From Ignavibacteria bacterium (lineage in GTDB: Bacteria; Bacteroidota; Ignavibacteria; UBA10030), in assembly GCA_016873755.1 (NCBI GenBank), contig VGWB01000004.1:1-43015 (forward strand): DNA of 43,015 nt, written 5' to 3'. The translations under genes were made by a program, and so were the position numbers. Below the pieces are notes generated by a model. It did not search any database. It had not been told where the DNA came from and saw only the letters and a list, made by a program, of their open reading frames with translations. This document shows, piece by piece, positions 14,948-27,797 of the stretch; positions within the stretch are counted from its first letter, which is position 1, and every line of letters starts with the position of its first letter.

Positions 14948-15451
14948 ATGACCATCTTTGTCCTGCGCCATGGGGATGCAGTCGAGAATCCCGCTCTCCA
15001 CGACAGCGAACGCCCGCTGAGTGAAGTGGGCCGTCGTCAGGGCATCACCGCAGGACGCTTCCTTCGCTCGCTGAACGTCAGCATCAGCATGATCCTCGTC
15101 AGCCCGCTTGTCAGAGCTCAGCAGATGGCGGCCGCAGTGAAGCAAGAGATCGGCGAGGTCTCTACCTCCGCCACAGAATACCTTACAGCCTCAAGCGAAC
15201 CCCGGCAGATTCTGGAGCACCTTGCTCGACTCAATATATCCAACCTGTTGCTCGTGGGTCACGAGCCCCATCTGAGCAAGGCCATTTCTCTGCTCATCTC
15301 CGGCAGCGGAGCACCATGCGTGGAAATGAAAAAGGCGAGCCTGGCGTGCCTGGACGCGCCCGCACCGGTGGAGCAGGGAAAGGCCATCCTACGATGGCTC
15401 CTCACCACACAGCAGATGCAAGCAGCTATCGGATCGACCGACTCCGCTTGA
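14948..15451 (+). CDS. sixA: Phosphohistidine phosphatase SixA
   Basis: This 167-residue member of the histidine phosphatase branch removes phosphate from phosphohistidine; E. coli SixA acts on Hpt domains and on PTS proteins. The N-terminal RHG (His8 as nucleophile) and the second catalytic His in VGHEPHL are present, together with the conserved ERPLSEVGRRQG and SPLVRAQQ. Size is typical. It sits 51 bases after the sigma54 activator on the same strand, upstream of a hybrid kinase that carries an Hpt domain, which makes a role in phosphorelay reset plausible. After the stop, the same frame stays open for about 70 codons, but that stretch does not look coding. Confidence 0.9.
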   Translation: MTIFVLRHGDAVENPALHDSERPLSEVGRRQGITAGRFLRSLNVSISMILVSPLVRAQQMAAAVKQEIGEVSTSATEYLTASSEPRQILEHLARLNISNLLLVGHEPHLSKAISLLISGSGAPCVEMKKASLACLDAPAPVEQGKAILRWLLTTQQMQAAIGSTDSA

Positions 15452-15631
15452 TCGCTGCCTACCCACCTGGCCAACAACGGCTTTCGCCCCTCAGGCACCG
15501 CGTTGCGCACCCACGTCTTGCCCGAGCTCGAAAGAACTGCCAGAATTGACTCACAGGAAACTGACCGTTCGTCGTATCACGGCTACAATTGTCTTCACCG
15601 AGAGAGTGTCGAGACCTCCTTGGGCGAGCAG

Positions 15632-15660
15632 TTGATTCAATGCCATAATCATCGTAAGAT
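15632..15660 (+). promoter_or_regulatory. Candidate promoter of the adenosine-specific-kinase gene
   Basis: TTGATT (15632-15637), 17-base spacer, TAAGAT (15655-15660). Extended, the -10 reads TAAGATTG, seven of eight to TAnnTTTG. A leader of about 30 bases would contain GAGGAG (15685-15690), seven bases before ATG 15698. Confidence 0.45.
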
Positions 15661-15697
15661 TGGATGAGAGCCCTAACGCACTGCGAGGAGAAGAACC

Positions 15698-16180
15698 ATG
15701 GATTTGAGAACCGTCAAGATCGAGAAGCCCGAAACGACGAACTTCATACTCGGGCAGTCACACTTCATCAAGACCGTCGAAGACATTCACGAGGCGGTCG
15801 TCCAGACCAATTCCAGCATCAAATTCGGCCTCGGTTTCTGCGAGTCCTCGGGTCCTGCGCTCGTTCGCTGGACGGGCAATGACTCGAATCTGATCGAACT
15901 CGCCCAGAAAAGTGCCTTAGCGCTTTCCTGTGGTCACTGCTTCATTCTCTTCATGGAGAGCGGCTTTCCGGTCAACATCCTTAACGCCATCAAGAACATT
16001 CCTGAAGTCTGTGCCATATTTTGCGCAACCGCAAATCCCGTCGAGGTCATCGTCGCCGAGACCGAGCAGGGGCGCGGGATACTCGGAGTCATCGACGGAG
16101 TGAAAACAAAAGGGATCGAAACGGAAGGCGACATCAAGACCCGGAAGGAGTTCTTGAGAAAGATCGGCTACAAACTTTGA
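15698..16180 (+). CDS. Adenosine-specific kinase family protein (DUF355)
   Basis: This 160-residue protein matches the adenosine-specific kinase family (PF04008) along its length. Conserved stretches include KFGLGFCESSGPALVR, the central SCGHCFILF with His80, ATANPVEV and GRGILGVIDG. An archaeal member has been reported to bind adenosine and AMP and to carry a stably modified (phosphorylated) histidine; the enzyme activity and physiological role remain poorly defined. It has a clear Shine-Dalgarno sequence (GAGGAG) and its own candidate promoter. The gene is 246 bases after sixA and 70 bases before the RidA-like lipoprotein. It has no signal peptide, so it is cytoplasmic. Confidence 0.88.
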   Translation: MDLRTVKIEKPETTNFILGQSHFIKTVEDIHEAVVQTNSSIKFGLGFCESSGPALVRWTGNDSNLIELAQKSALALSCGHCFILFMESGFPVNILNAIKNIPEVCAIFCATANPVEVIVAETEQGRGILGVIDGVKTKGIETEGDIKTRKEFLRKIGYKL

Positions 16181-16250: not shown

Positions 16251-16685
16251 ATGAAATCATCTTGCGCGATTCTCCTCGCGGCGGGCGTACTCATCGGCTG
16301 TGCGCCCAGCCGTACCTACATCACAGATGCCCGGGTGATTGGACCTTACACACCTGCAGTGAAGGTGGGGGATTTCCTGTATGTTTCAGGCCAGATCGCC
16401 ATGAAACCAGGCACAGCAGAGCTGGCGGCCGACGATATTGAGAGCCAGACCCGACAGGTTTTCGAGAACATCAAGGCCATCCTCAACAAAGCTGGTTACG
16501 ACCTCTCGGACGTCGTTCAGTGCACTGTCTACCTCAAAGACATGAATGACTTCGCCAACATGAATCAGATCTACGGAAGCTATTTCACGCAAGGTCGTTT
16601 TCCTACACGTACGACGGTCGAGGTTTCCAACCTACCGCGGAACGCGAGAATCGAGATCACTACAGTAGCCTGCAAGGCACGTTAG
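16251..16685 (+). CDS. RidA/YjgF-family protein with a lipoprotein signal
   Basis: This 144-residue protein has a typical RidA core behind a lipoprotein signal peptide. The leader is [14 protein letters not shown], with lipobox LIGC and predicted lipidated Cys17. The RidA core follows: [20 protein letters not shown], the central helix [13 protein letters not shown], then [13 protein letters not shown] with the Arg that holds the substrate carboxylate in RidA, and IEIT near the end. Cytosolic RidA hydrolyses reactive enamine/imine intermediates from PLP enzymes. Export and lipid anchoring would place this copy in the periplasm, where its substrate is unknown. It lies 26 bases before hutU on the same strand. 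No frameshift or lost motif is seen. Confidence 0.88.
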
Positions 16686-16711: not shown

Positions 16712-18385
16712 ATGAAACGAGAGAATAGACCCTCCCCCCATGTTGCCGTTCGTGCTCACAAGGGCACAACGCTTCACTGCAAAGGCTGGCTACAGGAAGC
16801 CGCCCTGCGGATGCTTATGAACAATCTCGATCCGGAAGTCGCGGAGAAACCACAGGAGCTGATTGTCTATGGCGGTACAGGCAAGGCAGCGCGCAGCTGG
16901 GACTGCTACGAAGCCATCGTTTCATCCCTCAGGAACCTGGAGAACGACGAAACGCTTCTTGTTCAATCGGGGAAACCCGTGGGGATATTCACGACGCACC
17001 CCAGCGCGCCGCGCGTCCTCATCAGCAACGCCATGATTGTACCACGATGGGCAACGTGGGATGAGTTCCGGCGCCTCGAGGGACTCGGCCTCACGATGTA
17101 CGGTCAGATGACGGCGGGCAGCTGGATTTACATTGGCACCCAGGGAATCCTACAAGGGACCTATGAAACCTTTGCTGCTTGCGCAGCGCGGCACTTCCGG
17201 GGAAGTCTGGCGGGACGATTTCTGCTCACAGCGGGCCTCGGTGGCATGGGAGGAGCTCAACCGCTCGCCGCCACGATGAACGGTGCGGCGTGCCTCGTTG
17301 TTGAAGTCGACCCCGAGCGAATCCAGCGTCGCCTCAAAACGAGCTACCTCGATACAGTGGCGGATAACCTTGATGATGCGCTCATTCAAATTCGCGCCGC
17401 GAAAGAGAAGAAGCTCCCCCTCTCCGTGGGTTTGCTCGGCAACGCCGCCGACGTCATCCCAAAGATAGCCAACGGCAAGTTTCTGCCCGATATCGTCACG
17501 GACCAAACCTCAGCACATGATACGCTCAACGGATATGTCCCTGCAGGCATTCCCTACGCCAAAGCACTGGATCTGCGCAAGAGCAATCCGCAGAAGTATG
17601 TCCAAATGGCGAAAGCGTCGATCGTCGCACATGTCAAAGGGCTGCTGAAGCTTCAGAAGAAAGGCGCGATCGTGTTCGACTACGGCAACAACATTCGCGG
17701 CGAGGCGTTGGCCAGCGGTGTGAAGAATGCCTTTGCGATACCGGGATTCGTTCCTGAGTACATTCGACCCCTTTTTTGCGACGGTAAAGGTCCATTCCGA
17801 TGGGCTGCGCTCTCCGGAGATCCTGACGATATCTACCGAACGGACCGAGCGGTCATGGAGACCTTCCCCGAAAACAGACAGCTCTGCAATTGGATCGAAA
17901 AAGCACAGAAACAGGTGGCTTTCCAAGGCCTGCCCGCGCGCATCTGCTGGCTCGGCTACGGGGAACGTGCAAAGATGGGCAAGATGTTCAACGATCTTGT
18001 GGCAAACGGTGAACTAAAAGCTCCCATTGTAATCGGTCGAGACCATCTCGATTGCGGCAGCGTCGCCTCTCCGAACCGCGAGACCGAGAACATGAGGGAC
18101 GGGAGCGACGCCATTGCCGACTGGCCGATTCTGAACGCTCTGCTCAATGCCGTGGGCGGTGCAAGCTGGGTAAGTGTGCATCACGGCGGCGGCGTTGGCA
18201 TCGGACTCTCGATTCATGCGGGCATGGTGGTTGTGTGTGACGGAAGCAAGGATGCTGAAGAACGCCTGCAGCGAGTGCTCACCTACGATCCGGGCCTGGG
18301 GATCATGCGCCACAGCGATGCCGGATACGAGCGTGCGATCAAGAATGCGAAGCTTCGGGGGCTGAAGGTACCAATGATGCCTTAG
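16712..18385 (+). CDS. hutU: Urocanate hydratase
   Basis: This 557-residue NAD-dependent enzyme converts urocanate to 4-imidazolone-5-propanoate, the second step of histidine breakdown. It is full length and well conserved throughout: [14 protein letters not shown] near the N-terminus, the NAD-binding [10 protein letters not shown] at about 175, the active-site region [15 protein letters not shown] with Cys412, [16 protein letters not shown], and the C-terminal [18 protein letters not shown] just ahead of ATG 16712 can serve as the ribosome-binding site. hutI, ftcD and fchA follow downstream after four unrelated genes and a large sensor kinase. Histidine ammonia-lyase (hutH), which makes urocanate, is not in this window. 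Confidence 0.97.
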
Positions 18386-18456
18386 CCAGCTCCCCCACAC
18401 ATCTACACACGCGATTTGGTCTTCCCTTTCCACCACTCATTCGCACAGGCCTGTCG

Positions 18457-21400
18457 ATGAGACGCAAACTGGCACTTGGTTTTGGCGTGACCCTCGTGAT
18501 TCTGATCGCCATGGCCATCGTGTCATACCAGAGCACACGGCAGCTCGTCGAGAGCACCTCGTTGCTGGGGCGTTCACACGCAATTGTCGCGGGCCTTGAT
18601 CATTTGCTCTACATCCTCACGAGAGTCGAGTCTGACTCCCGCGGGTATGTTCTGAATGCCCAATCGCAGCATCCACACTTCCAGAGGCTGGCAGCGGATT
18701 CGCTCGCCCATCAGCTCGAGCACCTGCGGGAGCTGACAGCCGACAATCCTTCGCAACAGCGTTCACTCGATGCCCTCGAGCCACTGGTCCGGCGCAAGCT
18801 TGATGTGCTCCAAGAGGCGATCGATGCTCGATCCGGCAGAGGCATGAGCGAAGCGGCCAAGATCGTCCAGTCCGGCCGGGGGGAGGAACTGATGGACAGT
18901 GTTGAAACGGTTGTCGCGGTTATGAAGGGTGTCGAGCAAGCCCTCCTCCTCACACGCGACAGCGAGGTCTCATCCACGCTTAGCCAGGCAGTGTTGATTC
19001 TCGCGGTTGGGTACCTCTCCGGATTCGGGCTTCTGGTCGTCGTGTTCATCCTGTTGACCCGTGAGGTCAACCGGCGTCGGTGGGCCGAGGAAGCTTTGCG
19101 CAAAAGCGAAGAAAGCTACCGCGAACTCGTCGAGAGCGCAAGCGACGTCATCTATCGCACAGACGATCAAGGCCGATTCACCTATGTGAATCCTGTCGGA
19201 TTGCGCCTCATGGGGTATGCTGAAGATGAGGTGATGGGACGACGATATCTTGAGATTATCGAAGAGGCGTCTCGCGAAGAGCTGGAGCGTTTTTACAGAC
19301 GCCAGGCTTTTATGCAGACTCCCAACACCTATCGCGAATTTCCCGCTGTTACAAAGAGCGGGTCCGTCGTGTGGCTCGGACAGAACGTGCAGCTTCTGAA
19401 GGAAGGCGATCGGATTGTCGGTTTCCAGGCCGTTGCTCGCGACATAACGGCTCGGAGGAAAGCAGAGGAAGAGCGCGACCGGTTCTTCACCCTCTCTCTT
19501 GACCTGCTTTGCATTACCGGTTTCGACGGATTTTTCAGGCTCTTGAATCCCTCCTGGCAGAAGCTGCTCGGCTTCACAAACGGAGAACTGATGGCCGAGC
19601 CTTTTACGAACTTTGTCCATCCGGACGACCGGCTGAGCACGTACGAACAGCTCTTGCGCGTCACACAGGGTACCAATCTGCTCTCCTTCGAAACGCGCTT
19701 CCGCTGCAAAGATGGCTCCTACAAATGGACGGAGTGGACTGCGACGCCCTTTGCTCATCAGCAATTGATCTATGCCGTCGGAAGAGACATCACTGAGCGG
19801 AAGAAGATCCAGGAGGACCTTGCTGAAAGCGAAAGCCGCTATCGCATCCTGGCCGAGAATTCGACCGATTTGATCGCTCGTCACTCCCCTGAGGGTGTGT
19901 TCCTCTACGTATCGCCTGCCTGCAAGACCTTGCTGGGATATGAAGCCGAGGATCTCGTCGGCCGTTCTGTGTTCGAGTTCTTCCACCCCGATGATCTCCT
20001 GAGGGCCACGCTCGATCGACCAAAGATCAAGGATCTCCCGGAATCCTTCACCAATGTCTACCGGGTTCGGAAGAAGGATGGGACGTTCATCTGGTTCGAG
20101 TCGACCAGTAGAACCGTTCGCGACAAAACAACCCAGATGGTTCTGGAGGTAATTACCGTCTCGCGCGACATCTCCGTGCGAAAGGCGGCAGAAGAGATGC
20201 TCGAGCAAAGCGAGCGCCGCCTCCAGCAGGTCATTGAAACTGTTGAGGAGGGAATCACGCTCAGCGACGAGAACGGACATTTTGAGATCTTCAATTCCGC
20301 GATGGAGCGACTCACCGGTTACACGATGGCCGAAGTGAATCAGTCCGGTGATTTCTCACGCATTCTCTATCCCGACCCCGACCTCCGTCAACGCGCCCTT
20401 GACGGACTCAAGGTCCTTCTCGAGGAAGGGAAATCGGTAGAAACGGAGTCAACCATCCGCACGAAGTCCGGCGAGCGCAAGACCATCCTTGCAACAACAG
20501 CTCTGCTGAACGTCTGGAACCGCCGCATGTTCCTCAGCGCGTACCGCGACATCACGGAACGGAAGCGAGCCGAAGAGGAACTCAAGAATGCCAAGGAGCA
20601 AGCGGAAGCCGCGACGCGTGCAAAATCCGAGTTTCTGGCGATGATGAGCCACGAGATCAGGACACCGATGAACAGCGTGATCGGCATGACCGATCTCCTC
20701 CTCGAATCTTCTCTGACGGACGAGCAGCGTGACTATGCCGAAACTATCAGAACCGGCGGCGAATCACTTCTCAGCATTATCAATGACATTCTCGACTTTT
20801 CAAAGATCGAATCCGGGAAGATTGAACTCGAGGAACGCCCATGCGAACTGAAAAGCTGCATCGAGGAGGTCCTCGATCTTCTCGCGCCGAAAACCATGGA
20901 GAAAGGACTTGACCTTCTCTATTGGGTCGATCCGCAGATTCCTCCATACATCATTGGCGATCCTCTTCGTCTCCGTCAGATCCTGATTAACCTCGCGGGG
21001 AACGCCGTCAAGTTCACCGACCGCGGAGAGGTCTACATCAGAGCTAGCCTCTCGTGGAGACTCGGCTCAAACCTCGAGCTCCAGTTCTCTGTCAAGGACA
21101 CCGGCATTGGCATACCGCCCGAGAAGCTCGACCGCCTGTTCAAGCCGTTCTCCCAGGTGGACTCATCAACAACGCGCCGCTACGGGGGCACCGGTTTGGG
21201 CCTGGCAATCTGTACGAGACTTGTTCAACTCATGGGTGGAAAGATATGGGCCGAAAGCGAGGAGAACAGAGGCTCAACCTTCTTCTTCACGATACGTTCC
21301 TCCGTCGCACCCGGTGAAACCGATCTCCCCAAGGTGTACCTGCGAGGAAAAACTCCTGAACTCGCCGGGAAACGCATCCTCATCGTTGACGACAACACGA

Positions 21401-22506
21401 CAAATCTCCTCATCCTCAGGCTGCAGACCGAACAGTGGGGCATGCTCCCGCGCACCACCTCATCCCCCCGTGAGGCGCTTGAGTGGATCGGAAAAGGAGA
21501 CCCGTTCGACGTTGCGATCTTCGACATGCTGATGCCTGAGATGGACGGCATTCAGCTTGCCAGAGAGGCACGGAAGATCCGACCAAACAAGACACTTCCG
21601 TTCATTCTGTTCACATCGACGGGAAAAACTCCGGCAGAGGAGCCGGCCATCAGGGACTTCTTCTCCGCTACGCTTCCGAAACCGGTGAAGCGAACGGAGT
21701 TGTTTGATCTCATCCTCGAAGTGGTGTCCGGCAAGAAACCGATCGCACCCAAACCAAAGACACAGCTTGTCAAACCCACGGTTCGACCGGGCGAACTGAA
21801 GATCCTCGTTGCAGAAGACAACCCAATCAACCAGAAGTTGCTGCTGCGCGTGCTGAAGCAACTCGGGTTCAGCGCAGATATGGCCAACAATGGTGTGGAA
21901 GTCCTGAAGGCAGTGGAAACGTCACGATACGATCTCGTCTTCATGGATGTCCACATGCCCGAGATGGACGGACTTGAGGCAACGCGCCGGATCGTCAATA
22001 GTACGAAATCCGAGGATCGGCCGTTCATCATCGCCGTGACAGCGGACGCGATGCAGGGAGACCGGGATAAGTGCATCGAAGCAGGAATGGATGATTACAT
22101 CAGTAAGCCCATCCGGATCACAGATATCCACGACGTTCTTGATCGTTGGGGGCAGAACGTGGGCAAGGAGGAGGCGGCTGAGCCTGTGTCCACCTCAGCC
22201 GAACATGATCAGGAGCTAGAGCAGCTGGTGCAGGATCGCGTTCACCAGCTCGGCCTCGAAACAGACACCGTCTTTATCAGAGAGCTTATCCAGTCATACA
22301 TCCCTCTGATCAATACGCAGCTCAACACCATTCTCGAGGCACATAGGGAGAGGAACGCCAAGAAGCTCTCTCAGGCAGCCCATTCCCTGAAGGGTGCAAG
22401 CCTCAACGTCGGCGCGAATGCTCTCGCTGACCTGTGCCGCATTATTGAGGAAAGTGCTCGAAACAACCAGTTCGAGGCCCTCGAAACAGTCTTGGAAGAG
22501 ATATAA
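18457..22506 (+). CDS. Hybrid sensor kinase: CHASE3-like, 4 PAS, HisKA, 2 REC, Hpt
   Basis: This 1349-residue membrane kinase is built for an internal phosphorelay. It has a transmembrane helix (about 5-24), a CHASE3-like periplasmic helical domain (to about 170) and a second helix (about 178-202). PAS domains lie at about 215-335, 340-455, 455-580 and 583-705. The HisKA domain has His732 in MSHEIRTP and is followed by HATPase (about 840-955; DTGIGI, GTGLGL). Receiver 1 has Asp1023, receiver 2 has Asp1164, and the C-terminal Hpt domain has His1309 in AHSLKG. The TAA at 22504 cuts the last Hpt helix. The same frame continues with 24 coherent codons (RELTKVIQVLSGIKGK and onward) to a TGA at 22579. 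The start has no clear Shine-Dalgarno sequence. The signal sensed is unknown. Confidence 0.93.
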   Translation: MRRKLALGFGVTLVILIAMAIVSYQSTRQLVESTSLLGRSHAIVAGLDHLLYILTRVESDSRGYVLNAQSQHPHFQRLAADSLAHQLEHLRELTADNPSQQRSLDALEPLVRRKLDVLQEAIDARSGRGMSEAAKIVQSGRGEELMDSVETVVAVMKGVEQALLLTRDSEVSSTLSQAVLILAVGYLSGFGLLVVVFILLTREVNRRRWAEEALRKSEESYRELVESASDVIYRTDDQGRFTYVNPVGLRLMGYAEDEVMGRRYLEIIEEASREELERFYRRQAFMQTPNTYREFPAVTKSGSVVWLGQNVQLLKEGDRIVGFQAVARDITARRKAEEERDRFFTLSLDLLCITGFDGFFRLLNPSWQKLLGFTNGELMAEPFTNFVHPDDRLSTYEQLLRVTQGTNLLSFETRFRCKDGSYKWTEWTATPFAHQQLIYAVGRDITERKKIQEDLAESESRYRILAENSTDLIARHSPEGVFLYVSPACKTLLGYEAEDLVGRSVFEFFHPDDLLRATLDRPKIKDLPESFTNVYRVRKKDGTFIWFESTSRTVRDKTTQMVLEVITVSRDISVRKAAEEMLEQSERRLQQVIETVEEGITLSDENGHFEIFNSAMERLTGYTMAEVNQSGDFSRILYPDPDLRQRALDGLKVLLEEGKSVETESTIRTKSGERKTILATTALLNVWNRRMFLSAYRDITERKRAEEELKNAKEQAEAATRAKSEFLAMMSHEIRTPMNSVIGMTDLLLESSLTDEQRDYAETIRTGGESLLSIINDILDFSKIESGKIELEERPCELKSCIEEVLDLLAPKTMEKGLDLLYWVDPQIPPYIIGDPLRLRQILINLAGNAVKFTDRGEVYIRASLSWRLGSNLELQFSVKDTGIGIPPEKLDRLFKPFSQVDSSTTRRYGGTGLGLAICTRLVQLMGGKIWAESEENRGSTFFFTIRSSVAPGETDLPKVYLRGKTPELAGKRILIVDDNTTNLLILRLQTEQWGMLPRTTSSPREALEWIGKGDPFDVAIFDMLMPEMDGIQLAREARKIRPNKTLPFILFTSTGKTPAEEPAIRDFFSATLPKPVKRTELFDLILEVVSGKKPIAPKPKTQLVKPTVRPGELKILVAEDNPINQKLLLRVLKQLGFSADMANNGVEVLKAVETSRYDLVFMDVHMPEMDGLEATRRIVNSTKSEDRPFIIAVTADAMQGDRDKCIEAGMDDYISKPIRITDIHDVLDRWGQNVGKEEAAEPVSTSAEHDQELEQLVQDRVHQLGLETDTVFIRELIQSYIPLINTQLNTILEAHRERNAKKLSQAAHSLKGASLNVGANALADLCRIIEESARNNQFEALETVLEEI

Positions 22507-22615
22507 CGGGAACTCACCAAGGTGATTCAGGTGCTTTCGGGAATCAAGGGGAAGCTAGAGCCCCCGCCAGAGGCCTCCTGAAACGCTCAGCCGAATCTGG
22601 ACCCGTTCAGAACAT

Positions 22616-23563
22616 ATGAAATACATCATTTTGGGTACCGGCGGCGTGGGAGGATTTTTCGGCTCGAGGCTCGCGCTTGCAGGTAATGATGTCTGGTTCG
22701 TCTCTCGCGGGAAGCACCTGGAGGCAATGAAACGCTCAGGGCTGCGCGTCAGGTCGACTGCGGGTGATTTAGCCATCCCCCCCGGCAAAATGACCGACCG
22801 TGCTGCAGACTCCGGCGCTGCTGATGTCGTTCTCTTCTGCGTCAAGTCGTACGACACAGAAGCCGCAGCGAAGCAGCTCGCTCCCATCCTGAACGACAGC
22901 TCCATTGTGCTCTGTCTTCAGAATGGCATCGACAATGAAGAGAAAATAAGGCGCATCATCACCCGTGGAGTCGTCTACGGCGGCGTAGCATACATTTCAG
23001 CGCGGATCACTGCGCCGGGAGAGATTACCGAGACGGGCGGTTTTCAGAAAATCGCGTTAGGGCCGCTGGACGGTCCCGTCGACAACCGAGCTCGTGATCT
23101 GCGGGATGTGTTCGTGCGCGCAGGAATCAGATGCGACCTGTCTGACGTGATCTTGAAGGACATCTGGAACAAATTTGTCTTCATCGCTTCGATGGGCTCT
23201 TTCACGGCCTTGTCACGACTAACGCAAGGAGAGATCATTGACTCTCCGCAGACCCTCTCTCTCGTCTTCGACGCAATGCGCGAAGTGCAACAGATTGCAT
23301 GGAAACTTGGGGTCCGGCTTGAGCCACTTGATGAGGCAGTGATAACAAAAGGCCTGAAACGTTTTGATAGTGCCACACGCTCATCGATGTACTACGATTT
23401 GGTGAACGAGAAGCCTCTTGAGGTCGAGGCGCTGAACGGTACGGTTGTCCGGCTCGGTCAGCAGGTCGGCGTTCCGACCCCGATCCACCGCGTGATCTAC
23501 ACGTCCCTTCTGCCGTACCACCGGAAATTCCTCAACTCCCGCTCTCCTCAGGTGCCTGCATAA
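22616..23563 (+). CDS. panE: 2-dehydropantoate 2-reductase
   Basis: This 315-residue NADPH-dependent ketopantoate reductase reduces 2-dehydropantoate to pantoate in pantothenate (CoA) synthesis. The Rossmann motif ILGTGGVGGFFGSRLA lies at the N-terminus. The catalytic Lys lies in DIWNKFVFIASMGSFTAL, with the C-terminal helical ApbA domain including SSMYYDL and EVEALNG. Length is normal. It follows the hybrid kinase by about 110 bases, or 34 bases after the possible read-through extension of that kinase. No other pantothenate gene is present. Homologues of this family can also reduce other 2-oxo acids, so assignment to pantoate rests on motif conservation. Confidence 0.93.
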   Translation: MKYIILGTGGVGGFFGSRLALAGNDVWFVSRGKHLEAMKRSGLRVRSTAGDLAIPPGKMTDRAADSGAADVVLFCVKSYDTEAAAKQLAPILNDSSIVLCLQNGIDNEEKIRRIITRGVVYGGVAYISARITAPGEITETGGFQKIALGPLDGPVDNRARDLRDVFVRAGIRCDLSDVILKDIWNKFVFIASMGSFTALSRLTQGEIIDSPQTLSLVFDAMREVQQIAWKLGVRLEPLDEAVITKGLKRFDSATRSSMYYDLVNEKPLEVEALNGTVVRLGQQVGVPTPIHRVIYTSLLPYHRKFLNSRSPQVPA

Positions 23564-23576
23564 CGTCGATGTCGTC

Positions 23577-23786
23577 GTGACCACGAACGATTCCTTCCCG
23601 CATGTCGGTCTCTGCGAACGATGCCGACACTCGACGATCATCACGAGCGCTCACGAGAGCCGGTTCTACCTCTGTGAACTCTCCGCCGCTGACCAAAGCT
23701 ACCCAAAGTATCCCCGCCTGCCGGTCCTTCGTTGTCCGGGTTTCGAGGAACGAGATCCCGCACCCCAAAACGAGCGCTCATCCTAG
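23577..23786 (+). CDS. Small conserved Cys-motif protein (putative zinc binder)
   Basis: This 69-residue protein starts with GTG 13 bases after the panE stop. Four cysteines are arranged as CERC near residue 15, one in FYLC and one in LRCPGFE, a pattern typical of small zinc-binding proteins. The stretch SRFYLCELS...YPKYPRLPVLRCPGFE resembles short conserved hypothetical proteins found in many environmental bacteria. No function is known to me. The longest frame of the downstream methyltransferase overlaps this gene completely at its 5' end, but the overlapping part there is low-complexity and unlike the family. I therefore take this small frame as the real one. No strong Shine-Dalgarno sequence precedes the GTG. 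Confidence 0.65.
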   Translation: MTTNDSFPHVGLCERCRHSTIITSAHESRFYLCELSAADQSYPKYPRLPVLRCPGFEERDPAPQNERSS

Positions 23787-23886
23787 CCAGCTTGCTTCTT
23801 TTGCCACTTCTTCGTTTCTTGGGCCGACATCGAAGGGGACCTCCGCACCGCCGTTCAAGGAAGCTGTTGCGACCGACGCAGAAGTC

Positions 23887-24777
23887 GTGGTCGAGAATTC
23901 GCAATATCAAGAACTCATCGCCAAAGAAGCCAAGCACTGGAGCGCGGTTCGACCGGATCCCCAGAACCCTCAGATCTGGCATGATCCACAGCTCTTTGAG
24001 ATTTTTTTTGGGAAGCACTATCGGCGCCTCATCGAGCGAGCTGTTGCGGCCGGCCCAGCCGTCCTGGAACTCGGCTGCGGTGAAGGCAATCTTTCTATCG
24101 AGCTCGCTCAGCGCGGCCTTCACGTGACGGCCTACGACCTGAGTCCGGAACGGATCGAACGGGCCCAAGCCCGAGCACAGCGACTCCGTCTCGACCATTG
24201 CACGACTTTTCGCGTTGGCGATCTCAACACTCTCACGCTGCCCGCCGAGACGTTCGACAGCGTGGTTGCACATGACGCCCTGCACCATATTCTCAATATC
24301 GGCGGTCTGTGCGACGAGGTGCGGGGTTCCCTCAAGCCGACCGGGGTGTTTCTCGTCATGGATTTCATCGGCATGGGAGCGATCAGAAAGGTACTCGCCG
24401 CTGCACTGTACGCCCTGGTCCCGACGTACCAACCGTATCGCGCAAAGTGGAGCCTGCGCCACCGGCTCCGGGGTTTTCTTGCAGACGAAAACCGGAGGCG
24501 CCAGTCGCTACAGGATGGATCCGGATCCTCGCTCCACGATGAGTCACCGTTCGAAGAAATCTCGCAGCGATCGATAGTGAACGAAATCAGGAAGCGCTTG
24601 CTGCTCACAGCATATGAGACGTTCTGCCCATTCTGGTACTACTTCGCAGCCAGAATTCGTTTACCAAAGGGCATGAGATACTCCGTTGCACGGCTGCTCC
24701 ATGTAATGGACGGCGTGTTGCTTCGCCTTCATCTGGTACGCGGGGCCTATTTCTTTCTTGAAGCAAGGAAGCTATAA
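23887..24777 (+). CDS. Class I SAM-dependent methyltransferase
   Basis: This is a soluble methyltransferase of unknown substrate (296 residues from GTG 23887). Motif I is VLELGCGEGNLS, followed by TAYDLSPERIERAQ (acidic end of strand 2), FRVGDLNTL and the post-II segment VVAHDALHHI. The C-terminal 120 residues, with ALYALVPTYQPYR and many Arg, go beyond the minimal fold. The frame stays open back to ATG 23602, but that extension is Ser/Thr-rich shadow sequence of the Cys-motif gene. Family similarity begins near AKEAKHWS. GTG 23887 is the nearest usable start, but it has no good Shine-Dalgarno sequence, so the N-terminus is uncertain. hutI starts 18 bases downstream. Confidence 0.83.
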   Translation: MVENSQYQELIAKEAKHWSAVRPDPQNPQIWHDPQLFEIFFGKHYRRLIERAVAAGPAVLELGCGEGNLSIELAQRGLHVTAYDLSPERIERAQARAQRLRLDHCTTFRVGDLNTLTLPAETFDSVVAHDALHHILNIGGLCDEVRGSLKPTGVFLVMDFIGMGAIRKVLAAALYALVPTYQPYRAKWSLRHRLRGFLADENRRRQSLQDGSGSSLHDESPFEEISQRSIVNEIRKRLLLTAYETFCPFWYYFAARIRLPKGMRYSVARLLHVMDGVLLRLHLVRGAYFFLEARKL

Positions 24778-24795
24778 ATCCAACAAGACACGCTC

Positions 24796-26043
24796 GTGCA
24801 ACTCCTTATAGAGAACATTAGAGAACTCGTGACTGTAAACGGCGGCGGGCGGCCATTCAAGACCGGCAAGGAGATGCGCGATCTCGGCGTCATTAAGGAC
24901 GTGTGCGTGTTCGTCGAGGACGGCATCATCCGGTGGATCGGCTCCACCGGTGCGTTTGGGCTCTCCTTGAACCGTGATGCCGACGTCATCGACGCGTCAT
25001 CGCTGGTCGCCCTTCCCGGGTTCGTCGATTCACACACCCACGCGCTCTTCGCGGGCAGCCGGGAGCGGGAGTTCGCGATGCGAGCCGAGGGAAAGACTTA
25101 TCAGGAGATCGCCGCGGAAGGGGGAGGAATCGCGAGCACGGTCGCCTCAACACGAGCAACCTCCAAAAAGGAATTGAAGAAACTGACGAGCAAACGGCTC
25201 GACTCCATGATGAAGCATGGAACGACAACCGTGGAAATCAAGTCCGGCTACGGTCTCGATCCCGATACCGAAGTCAAGATGCTGGAGGCGATCAAGGAGC
25301 TTGCAGATGAGCATTTCATGACGATTGCCCCGACCTTCTTAGGAGCTCATGCCGTTCCCTCCGAATACGCACAGAATAAAGATGCGTATGTCGAGCTTGT
25401 CTGCGAACACATGCTCCCGTATGTCGCCAGAAAGAATCTGGCAAGATTCTGCGACGTGTTTTGCGAACAGGGCTATTTCACGCTTGAGGAATCGAGACGC
25501 ATCCTGGAGCGGGCAAAATCGTTGGGACTTCAATTGAAGATTCACGCCGACGAGTTCAACGCCATCGGTGGCACGCGGCTCGCTGCTGAGCTTGGCGCTC
25601 TCTCCGTCGACCACCTCGAGCATATTCAAGCCGAGGGGATCAAAGCACTGAGGGGAAGGGAAACCATAGCGGTGGTTCTTCCCGGTGTCTCGTTCTTCCT
25701 TCGTAACCCGTACGCGCCAGCCCGCGCGCTCATCGACGCGGAGATCCCCGTTGCGATTGCCTCGGATTTCAATCCGGGCTCCTGCATGGCATTCTCCATG
25801 CCGCTGATGATGACCATTGCGTGTACACAGATGTCTTTAACCCCCGAGGAGGCGATCTGTGCTGCGACGCTCAACGGCGCTGCGGCGCTCGGCTTGTCAA
25901 GCATTCTCGGGAGCATCGAGGTTGGCAAGCAAGCGGATATCATCCTCTACGATATCCCAGACTACCGGTACCTGGCTTACCATTTCGGCACCAACCTCGT
26001 GGCGACCGTCATCAAGAAGGGGACAATCCTTGAATTCTCATAA
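24796..26043 (+). CDS. hutI: Imidazolonepropionase
   Basis: This 415-residue metal-dependent amidohydrolase opens 4-imidazolone-5-propanoate to N-formimidoyl-L-glutamate, the third step of histidine degradation. The metal motif HTH lies in GFVDSHTHALFAGSRE. Other family stretches are EGGGIASTV, TTVEIKSGYGLD, LGAHAVP, KIHADEFN (metal His), DHLEH and the terminal SDFNPGS that carries the metal Asp. Translation starts with GTG at 24796, only 18 bases after the methyltransferase stop, with no strong Shine-Dalgarno sequence. Its product is the substrate of the glutamate formimidoyltransferase encoded 21 bases downstream. Confidence 0.97.
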   Translation: MQLLIENIRELVTVNGGGRPFKTGKEMRDLGVIKDVCVFVEDGIIRWIGSTGAFGLSLNRDADVIDASSLVALPGFVDSHTHALFAGSREREFAMRAEGKTYQEIAAEGGGIASTVASTRATSKKELKKLTSKRLDSMMKHGTTTVEIKSGYGLDPDTEVKMLEAIKELADEHFMTIAPTFLGAHAVPSEYAQNKDAYVELVCEHMLPYVARKNLARFCDVFCEQGYFTLEESRRILERAKSLGLQLKIHADEFNAIGGTRLAAELGALSVDHLEHIQAEGIKALRGRETIAVVLPGVSFFLRNPYAPARALIDAEIPVAIASDFNPGSCMAFSMPLMMTIACTQMSLTPEEAICAATLNGAAALGLSSILGSIEVGKQADIILYDIPDYRYLAYHFGTNLVATVIKKGTILEFS

Positions 26044-26064
26044 CGGGCGACTGAGCAGTTCATC

Positions 26065-27099
26065 ATGAGACCTCTCGTCGAGTGCGTTCCAAATTTCAGT
26101 GAAGGAAGAAACGTCGAGATCATCGACACGATCTCATCGAGCATTCGCACAGTCGACAACGTAAAGCTGCTCAGCGTGGAGCCTGACAAAGACTACAATC
26201 GGACTGTTGTGACGTTCGTCGGCGAGCCTCACGCGGTTGAGGAAGCAGCCTTCCAGGCCACGAAAGTCGCTTCGGAGCGAATCGATATGCGAACGCACAA
26301 GGGGGAGCACCCGCGAGTCGGCGCGGTCGATGTCGTCCCATTCGTACCGATCTCCGGCGTGACGATGGAGGATTGTATCAGACTGGCCAACTTGTACGGA
26401 GCGCGGGTTGCCCGCGATCTGCATATTCCAGTCTACCTTTACGAATTTGCCGCGACCCGACCGGAACGGAGAAACCTGGCAACAATCCGCAAAGGTGAGT
26501 ATGAAGGATTGCGGGTCAAGCTTGCCGATCCCGCGTGGAAGCCGGATTACGGATCGACAGATTTCAACGAAAGATCCGGAGCTACGGTAGCTGGTGCACG
26601 GAAGTTCCTGATAGCGTATAACGTGAATCTCAGCACGCCGAAAGCCGAACTGGCCCAGGAAGTCGCCCTCAGAATCCGTGAGAGCGGGCGGCCGATGAAG
26701 AGTTCCAACGGGGAAGTCGTCAAAGACGAGAAGGGCGAAACGATCAAGATCCCCGGCACGCTCAAAGCCGTCAAGGCTATGGGTGTGTATCTCGAACGCT
26801 TCGACATTGCCCAAGTCTCGATTAATCTGGTAGACTTCGAAACAACCCCCCCACACGTTGCCTTTGAAGAAGTGAAGAAGCAGGCAGCTACTCTTGGAAT
26901 TGATGCCACGGGGAGTGAGATTGTCGGGCTCACACCTCTTTCGGCCCTGCTGATGGCTGGACGGTTCTACGCAGAGAGAGAAGGTCAACCAGAATCACTC
27001 TCGGAGGATTCGCTGGTCGCCTTGGCGACACGACATCTGGGATTAAGCCAGCTTGAGCCGTTCGACCCGACGAAGAAAGTAATTGACTACATGCTGTAG
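26065..27099 (+). CDS. ftcD: Glutamate formimidoyltransferase
   Basis: This 344-residue enzyme moves the formimidoyl group of N-formimidoyl-L-glutamate to tetrahydrofolate, releasing glutamate. It corresponds to the N-terminal half of the bifunctional mammalian FTCD. VPNFSEGRN opens the protein. The catalytic His is in MRTHKGEHPRVGAVDVVPF (His78). ARDLHIPVYLYE, GATVAGARKFLIAYN and VSINLVDFETT follow. Length fits the monofunctional bacterial form. It lies between hutI and the cyclodeaminase gene with short gaps, so the three form the last part of a hut operon. Together they route the one-carbon unit of histidine into folate rather than releasing formamide. Confidence 0.96.
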   Translation: MRPLVECVPNFSEGRNVEIIDTISSSIRTVDNVKLLSVEPDKDYNRTVVTFVGEPHAVEEAAFQATKVASERIDMRTHKGEHPRVGAVDVVPFVPISGVTMEDCIRLANLYGARVARDLHIPVYLYEFAATRPERRNLATIRKGEYEGLRVKLADPAWKPDYGSTDFNERSGATVAGARKFLIAYNVNLSTPKAELAQEVALRIRESGRPMKSSNGEVVKDEKGETIKIPGTLKAVKAMGVYLERFDIAQVSINLVDFETTPPHVAFEEVKKQAATLGIDATGSEIVGLTPLSALLMAGRFYAEREGQPESLSEDSLVALATRHLGLSQLEPFDPTKKVIDYML

Positions 27100-27170
27100 G
27101 AGTGTCGACCCGTGCTTCGGATCGCGAATCCGCGGCCCCTGGCACCGGACCACCTGATAGCGGAGACCTC

Positions 27171-27797
27171 ATGCTCACATCCAACTCGCTTTCACAGTTC
27201 CTTGATGAGCTCGCCTCCAGCTCGCCTGCACCCGGAGGAGGAAGCGTTGCCGCTCTCGCAGGTGCGATCGGCTCAGCTCTCACTTCGATGGTCTGCAACC
27301 TGACGATCGGTAAGAAGAAATACGCCGGTGTACAGGATGAAATTCAGTCGGTATTGGCGCAATCGGAAAAGCTCCGGCGGGACCTCACAGAGATGATCGA
27401 TCAGGACACAGAGGCCTTCAACAGTGTTATGGCGGCATTCGGGATGCCGAAGAACACCGAGGAAGAACAGCTCCAACGTACTTCAGCGATTCAAGAGGCA
27501 ACGCAGCGTGCCACGCTTGTGCCGCTCAACGTCATGGAGCTCTGTGAGCGCGCGCTGATACTCGCAAAAGTTGTTGCGGAGAAAGGGAACAAGAACTCTG
27601 TGTCAGACGCGGGGGTTGCGGCTTTGATGCTTCAGGCTGCTTGCGCTGGCGCAGGCCTCAACGTCCGGATCAATCTTGTGGCACTCAAAGACGAGGTGTT
27701 CGTCGGAGGAACGATCGAAAGAATGAAGGTGATTTCCGGGAGGGTTGAAGAGCTTGCGGCTGAGACGCTTGCACTTGTCAATTCAGCGATAGGATAA
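27171..27797 (+). CDS. fchA: Formimidoyltetrahydrofolate cyclodeaminase
   Basis: This 208-residue all-helical enzyme cyclises 5-formimidoyl-tetrahydrofolate to 5,10-methenyl-tetrahydrofolate with release of ammonia. It matches the C-terminal half of FTCD: SSPAPGGGSVAALAGAIGSAL near the N-terminus, DQDTEAFNSVMAAF in the middle, and KGNKNSVSDAGVAALML toward the end. I start it at ATG 27171, which has GGAG seven bases upstream and matches the usual N-terminus. A GTG at 27102, three bases after ftcD, would add 23 low-complexity residues. It is the last gene of the long plus-strand run; the next gene is convergent. Confidence 0.95.
   Translation: MLTSNSLSQFLDELASSSPAPGGGSVAALAGAIGSALTSMVCNLTIGKKKYAGVQDEIQSVLAQSEKLRRDLTEMIDQDTEAFNSVMAAFGMPKNTEEEQLQRTSAIQEATQRATLVPLNVMELCERALILAKVVAEKGNKNSVSDAGVAALMLQAACAGAGLNVRINLVALKDEVFVGGTIERMKVISGRVEELAAETLALVNSAIG

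Follow-up and report, generated by a model that had tools for sequence, protein, structure and literature searches.

Predicted lipid-anchored RidA proteins and a candidate Tat-exported PLP enzyme partner in an Ignavibacteria bacterium and its relatives

The window analyzed here, a stretch of 43,015 nucleotides of contig VGWB01000004.1 from an Ignavibacteria bacterium (assembly GCA_016873755.1), carries a short ORF for a RidA-family protein that begins with a lipoprotein signal. The ORF is flanked upstream by genes for a SixA-like phosphatase and an adenosine-specific kinase family protein (AdoK), and downstream by the urocanate hydratase gene hutU (Table 1). The SixA-like phosphatase and the PF04008 protein, encoded side by side at 14948-16180, stay together across the family, and PF04008 is itself a family described as bearing a stable phosphohistidine. 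On the other side, the hut run (16712-27797) comprises genes for HutU, a HutI-like amidohydrolase, FTCD_N, and FTCD_C, and is interrupted by a sensor kinase gene (1349 aa) together with genes for an ApbA-type reductase and a methyltransferase. No hutH gene was found in the window.

Table 1. Coordinates of the RidA gene, its sequence elements, and its neighbors in the window
Feature	Position	Strand	Evidence
Lipoprotein RidA, 144 aa	16251..16685	+	PF01042, TIGR00004, PDB sequence match
Signal peptide, residues 1-16	16251..16298	+	Hydropathy, orthologues
Lipobox LIGC; predicted lipidated Cys17 at 16299-16301, +2 = Ala	16290..16301	+	Orthologues; Lgt and LspA in genome
RidA core, I30 to K142	16338..16676	+	Y33, S46, N105, R120, E135 invariant; AlphaFold2 model and Foldseek
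Ligand-binding Arg120 codon (E. coli R105)	16608..16610	+	Alignment with E. coli RidA
SixA-like phosphohistidine phosphatase	14948..15451	+	Conserved upstream neighbor
AdoK, adenosine-specific kinase family PF04008	15698..16180	+	Conserved upstream neighbor
HutU urocanate hydratase	16712..18385	+	26 bases downstream of RidA

Membership of the protein in the RidA family was supported at several levels. The ORF matched PF01042 in Pfam (E=1.8e-40) and scored 147.2 bits against the NCBIfam model TIGR00004, above its cut-off of 106.25, while a sequence search of the PDB returned RidA/YjgF structures as best matches (2dyy, E=1.6e-38). The AlphaFold2 model (mean pLDDT 79, core mostly 83-96) displays the chorismate-mutase-like alpha/beta fold, and a Foldseek search with this model reached E values down to 7e-15, with a YjgF-family structure as the best match. 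Upon alignment with the E. coli RidA sequence, R120, E135, and Y33 of the window protein correspond to R105, E120, and Tyr17, respectively; S46 is also kept, and position 107 is occupied by Thr in the window protein versus Cys in E. coli. The ligand of RidA is bound by Arg105 and Glu120 (PMC4960622). The initial annotation had proposed a RidA core keeping the substrate-binding Arg, and the family models, the PDB match, the predicted fold, and the R120-R105 correspondence all bear this out. Furthermore, the core of the lipoprotein RidA displays a pN/pS of 0.17, denoting strong constraint. At residue 35 (16353-16355 in the window), next to the active-site Tyr, the GPYSQ of cytosolic RidAs is replaced by GPY(S/T)P in the order's exported proteins, a change that might alter the choice of substrate.

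The N-terminus of the protein follows the n-region/hydrophobic/lipobox pattern of bacterial lipoproteins, with K2, then a hydrophobic stretch, then LIGC. Mean hydropathy over 9 residues reaches 3.1 in this region versus about -1 in the cytosolic RidA of the same genome, whose own N-terminus bears no export signal. The genome also encodes Lgt (C23) and LspA (C8 and C75). Orthologues were obtained from 29 genomes belonging to the family and order of the window's genome; all 29 carry an export signal, and 27 have a lipobox-type Cys; the two others, from family f4, are Cys-less and have a signal-peptidase-I-like signal ending in AFSQ. In the short forms (the window protein, genus g10, and G049), the Cys is separated from GPY by 13-14 residues and thus stands at the place where a normal RidA begins, as if the anchor had been grafted onto the natural N-terminus. 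The long-form orthologues have a spacing of 27-30, nearly always exactly 30, and add a charged, probably helical linker (C-G-x-S-D-D-x-I-R-x-x-V-x-E-E-L). Asp at +2, the inner-membrane signal under the E. coli +2 rule, was found in no orthologue of the 29-genome set. The signal region gave a pN/pS of 0.55 versus 0.17 for the core, indicating that it is relaxed but not free, although it is too short for this value to serve as proof. The lipoprotein signal and LIGC lipobox that had been read from the window alone are thus confirmed by sequence and conserved among the relatives. Given this conservation, the export machinery, and the further exported RidAs found in other families (see below), the window protein is very probably exported and lipid-anchored, in keeping with the extracytoplasmic placement proposed at the outset.

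An ordinary cytosolic RidA is also encoded in the genome of the window (G000:C48), along with a divergent Rid, which makes the lipoprotein RidA an extra paralogue; a fragment at the end of contig C23 is identical to the cytosolic RidA over its length. A phylum-wide profile search recovered further exported RidAs, namely, lipoproteins in families f28 and f29 and proteins of the signal-peptidase-I type in f7 and f12, while a scan of named genomes with the full window protein gave nine RidAs, all apparently cytosolic. When a tree was built from RidA cores, the lipoprotein RidAs of the order, the Cys-less f4 proteins, and the f28 and f29 lipoproteins grouped in a single, moderately supported clade (90/76), separate from cytosolic RidA. 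The exported RidAs of f7 and f12 fell elsewhere in this tree, suggesting that RidA export may have had more than one origin. The window protein is a RidA by every test run, found in a new setting, that of a predicted lipid-anchored, exported subgroup.

A candidate partner was found next to the f28 proteins. In this family, a gene for a class-V PLP enzyme whose N-terminus resembles a Tat signal (METRKQFLKK) directly precedes the lipoprotein RidA gene, which is followed by a gene for an M20 peptidase. A homologue of the f28 enzyme with 55% identity is encoded in the window's genome (G000:C123), and a second one at C13; two different class-V PLP enzymes with Tat signals were located in this genome (L174:6688-7983 and L173:3996-5351), sharing 41% and 53% identity with the f28 enzyme. 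TatC is encoded as well, and the Tat motif RRxFL marks the N-terminus of class-V PLP enzymes in both this genome and its relatives. The G000:C123 enzyme, whose gene is located behind rhodanese-domain and MauE/DoxX genes, has a classical twin-arginine signal (LNRRDFLSAVGKGVGLAALSSATVAAL) and a PLP lysine in SLHKW; the two features expected of a PvdN-type enzyme, a twin-arginine signal and a PLP lysine, are found in the partner as NRRDFLSAVGKG and SLHKW. The best named matches of the Tat PLP enzyme were PvdN, followed by cyst(e)ine C-S lyases and desulfurases. Its scores remained below the cut-off of every NCBIfam equivalog (155.9 versus 650 bits for PvdN, NF051467) and of all cysteine desulfurase models, so that assigning it a C-S lyase or PvdN-like reaction from its sequence is a guess. 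PvdN and PtaA of Pseudomonas are exported by Tat with PLP bound and act in the periplasm (PMC6206403), which provides a precedent for the type of chemistry proposed here.

Homologues of the Tat PLP enzyme directly adjoin a RidA gene in 12 genomes from five families (six from f28, three from f24, and one each from f29, f7, and f5). All 12 adjoining RidAs are exported as judged from their sequences, 10 with a lipobox and 2 with a signal of the signal-peptidase-I type. In G053, a member of the window's order, the ORFs of the Tat PLP enzyme and of a signal-peptidase-I-type RidA overlap by 1 base (L172:1930-3662), an arrangement that suggests translational coupling. Neither in the genome of the window nor elsewhere in its family are the two genes linked.

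The distribution of both genes was compared among 61 relatives, counting Tat enzyme homologues at E<=1e-30. The PLP enzyme was present in 29 of the 30 genomes carrying the lipoprotein RidA clade versus 7 of the 31 without it (Fisher's test, 1.1e-9 by genome and 1.4e-4 by genus). The genus-level p value was 0.026 when close enzyme orthologues alone were counted; the distant homologues inspected in lipoprotein RidA genomes have a Tat-like start too. Since Fisher's test alone is confounded by relatedness, the comparison was repeated with independent pairs on an RpoB tree. The 7-9 pairs obtained never ran against the association; the median p was a marginal 0.06-0.13 for the lipoprotein clade and 0.016-0.03 for any exported RidA, the latter grouping having been chosen after seeing the data. 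In f7, the enzyme occurs in all four genomes with an exported RidA, and most of the f7 genomes listed without a RidA lack it. Moreover, RidA and enzyme are absent together in genus g9 and in other relatives. Some genomes depart from this pattern: G013 has a lipoprotein RidA without the enzyme (this genome is 81% complete), and G043, G045, G048, and G055 have the enzyme with no exported RidA seen, absences that must be read with care as many of the relatives' genomes are draft assemblies. Another exception is G001, a genome that lacks the Tat PLP enzyme but encodes, at C1 (L191), a RidA whose N-terminus contains a lipobox-like FHGC.

These observations can be combined into a model in which the precursor would be exported by Sec, lipidated by Lgt, and cleaved by LspA before Cys17, leaving a mature RidA anchored in the envelope and facing the periplasm. 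With Ala at +2, the protein would be destined for the outer membrane if the E. coli +2 rule holds. Once there, the RidA trimer would act on short-lived enamines and imines, 2-aminoacrylate for example, and their hydrolysis would yield a keto acid and ammonia; we consider that the window protein probably has such deaminase activity. The source of the intermediates would most likely be the Tat-exported, PvdN/C-S-lyase-like fold-type I PLP enzyme encoded at G000:C123, from which the substrate would be handed over. Enamines and imines released by this enzyme would arise in the periplasm, out of reach of the cytosolic RidA, and the anchored RidA would clear them. Release of 2-aminoacrylate and other enamines or imines is within the reach of PLP lyases, desulfurases, and enzymes related to them. 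Such products are hydrolyzed by cytosolic RidA (PMC5636819). On balance, we lean toward this whole reading, that of an envelope enamine/imine deaminase cleaning up after an exported PLP enzyme, and a specific pairing of RidA with the Tat PLP enzyme appears slightly better than an even bet. The broader proposal of a two-part extracytoplasmic metabolite-damage system, in which a Tat PLP enzyme releases an enamine or imine that an exported, usually lipid-anchored RidA hydrolyzes on the spot, stands at even odds. Of the two roles outside the cytoplasm suggested by the initial annotation, detoxification is thus the best reading, whereas sensing found no support.

It is also conceivable, though rather unlikely, that the lipid-anchored RidA acts as an all-purpose enamine/imine deaminase of the envelope, tied to no particular partner and clearing intermediates that arise spontaneously or through a number of periplasmic oxidases and dehydrogenases. 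Such a role would be in line with the broad imine deaminase activity found among RidA family members (PMC5619798), with the G001 exception, and with the unlinked genes in the window's genome, but it does not account for the RidA genes of five families that directly adjoin a gene for one type of enzyme and encode an exported RidA every time, nor for the joint absence of RidA and enzyme from genus g9 and other relatives. Considerably less probable is a role as an envelope holdase chaperone or oxidant scavenger rather than a deaminase, by analogy with N-chlorinated E. coli RidA, which turns into a chaperone after HOCl treatment (PMC4284807). The envelope would be the first site of HOCl-type stress; however, a holdase would have no need for the constraint seen on the active site, with its invariant R and E and the low pN/pS of the core, and no oxidative-stress theme was found in the gene neighborhoods.

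A functional link to histidine or urocanate degradation through hutU, as implied by the position of the gene in a histidine-degradation run, is equally improbable. The adjacency itself is real: hutU starts 26 bases downstream of the RidA gene, the order SixA-AdoK-RidA-HutU is almost universal in the window's family, and the lipobox RidA adjoins hutU in nearly all family members. However, AdoK and hutU are also neighbors without the lipoprotein RidA in L106, L107, and L113, so that RidA appears to be a passenger that either joined an older cluster or was lost from it, which weakens the link to histidine degradation. Conversely, AdoK-RidA is kept in other families of the order while the remaining neighbors change, and persists in L062, L064, L067, and L072, where HutU is distant from RidA or outside the stretch examined. 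The hut enzymes act in the cytoplasm, and none of them is known to release a free enamine. The association between RidA and the histidine pathway thus looks positional. No chemistry shared by RidA with AdoK or SixA was found, despite the conserved AdoK-RidA adjacency. Finally, the possibility that the protein is a cytosolic RidA with a mis-called N-terminus is very remote: the ATG of the ORF is preceded by only a weak Shine-Dalgarno sequence (AGAGA), but several orthologues have AGAGG upstream of the same ATG, the Cys spacing of the signal is fixed in 27 orthologues, and a search for a downstream start that would skip the signal found no ATG between lipobox and core, only GTG at residues 29 and 37, both of which would delete the first strand.

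Work on Rid proteins has treated them as a cytosolic protection against imines, including 2-aminoacrylate. Signal peptides, lipoproteins, and the periplasm all go unmentioned in a family-wide study of Rid proteins published in 2015 (PMC4433059), and the limited collection of literature searched contained no account of a RidA that is lipid-anchored or periplasmic, which is no proof of novelty. Taken together, the occurrence of an exported RidA with an exported vitamin B6 enzyme across the phylum suggests a previously undescribed envelope repair system. If true, the conserved exported clade paired with an exported PLP enzyme would mean that metabolite-damage control reaches the envelope and would point to periplasmic amino acid PLP chemistry in a large group of bacteria; the pairing would also offer a concrete route to the substrate of a widespread, uncharacterized Tat enzyme.

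Compared with known systems, the window protein shares the whole core, the active-site residues, and the predicted fold of the RidA subfamily (Rid = YjgF/YER057c/UK114; TIGR00004/PF01042), but differs in the lipoprotein signal at its natural N-terminus, its predicted extracytoplasmic site, and the GPY(S/T)P of its clade in place of the usual GPYSQ. The likely partner has in common with PvdN and PtaA a Tat signal, a class-V PLP fold with a PLP lysine, and a predicted periplasmic action, yet falls far below the PvdN cut-off (156 versus 650 bits) and has no pyoverdine genes seen nearby; no RidA partner is described for PvdN in PMC6206403. The pairing of a Rid protein with an imine-releasing enzyme is likewise seen for DadY, from the alanine-catabolic dad operon of Pseudomonas aeruginosa (PMC9714295). 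That pairing is not described as exported in the abstract of that report, whereas both partners considered here carry export signals.
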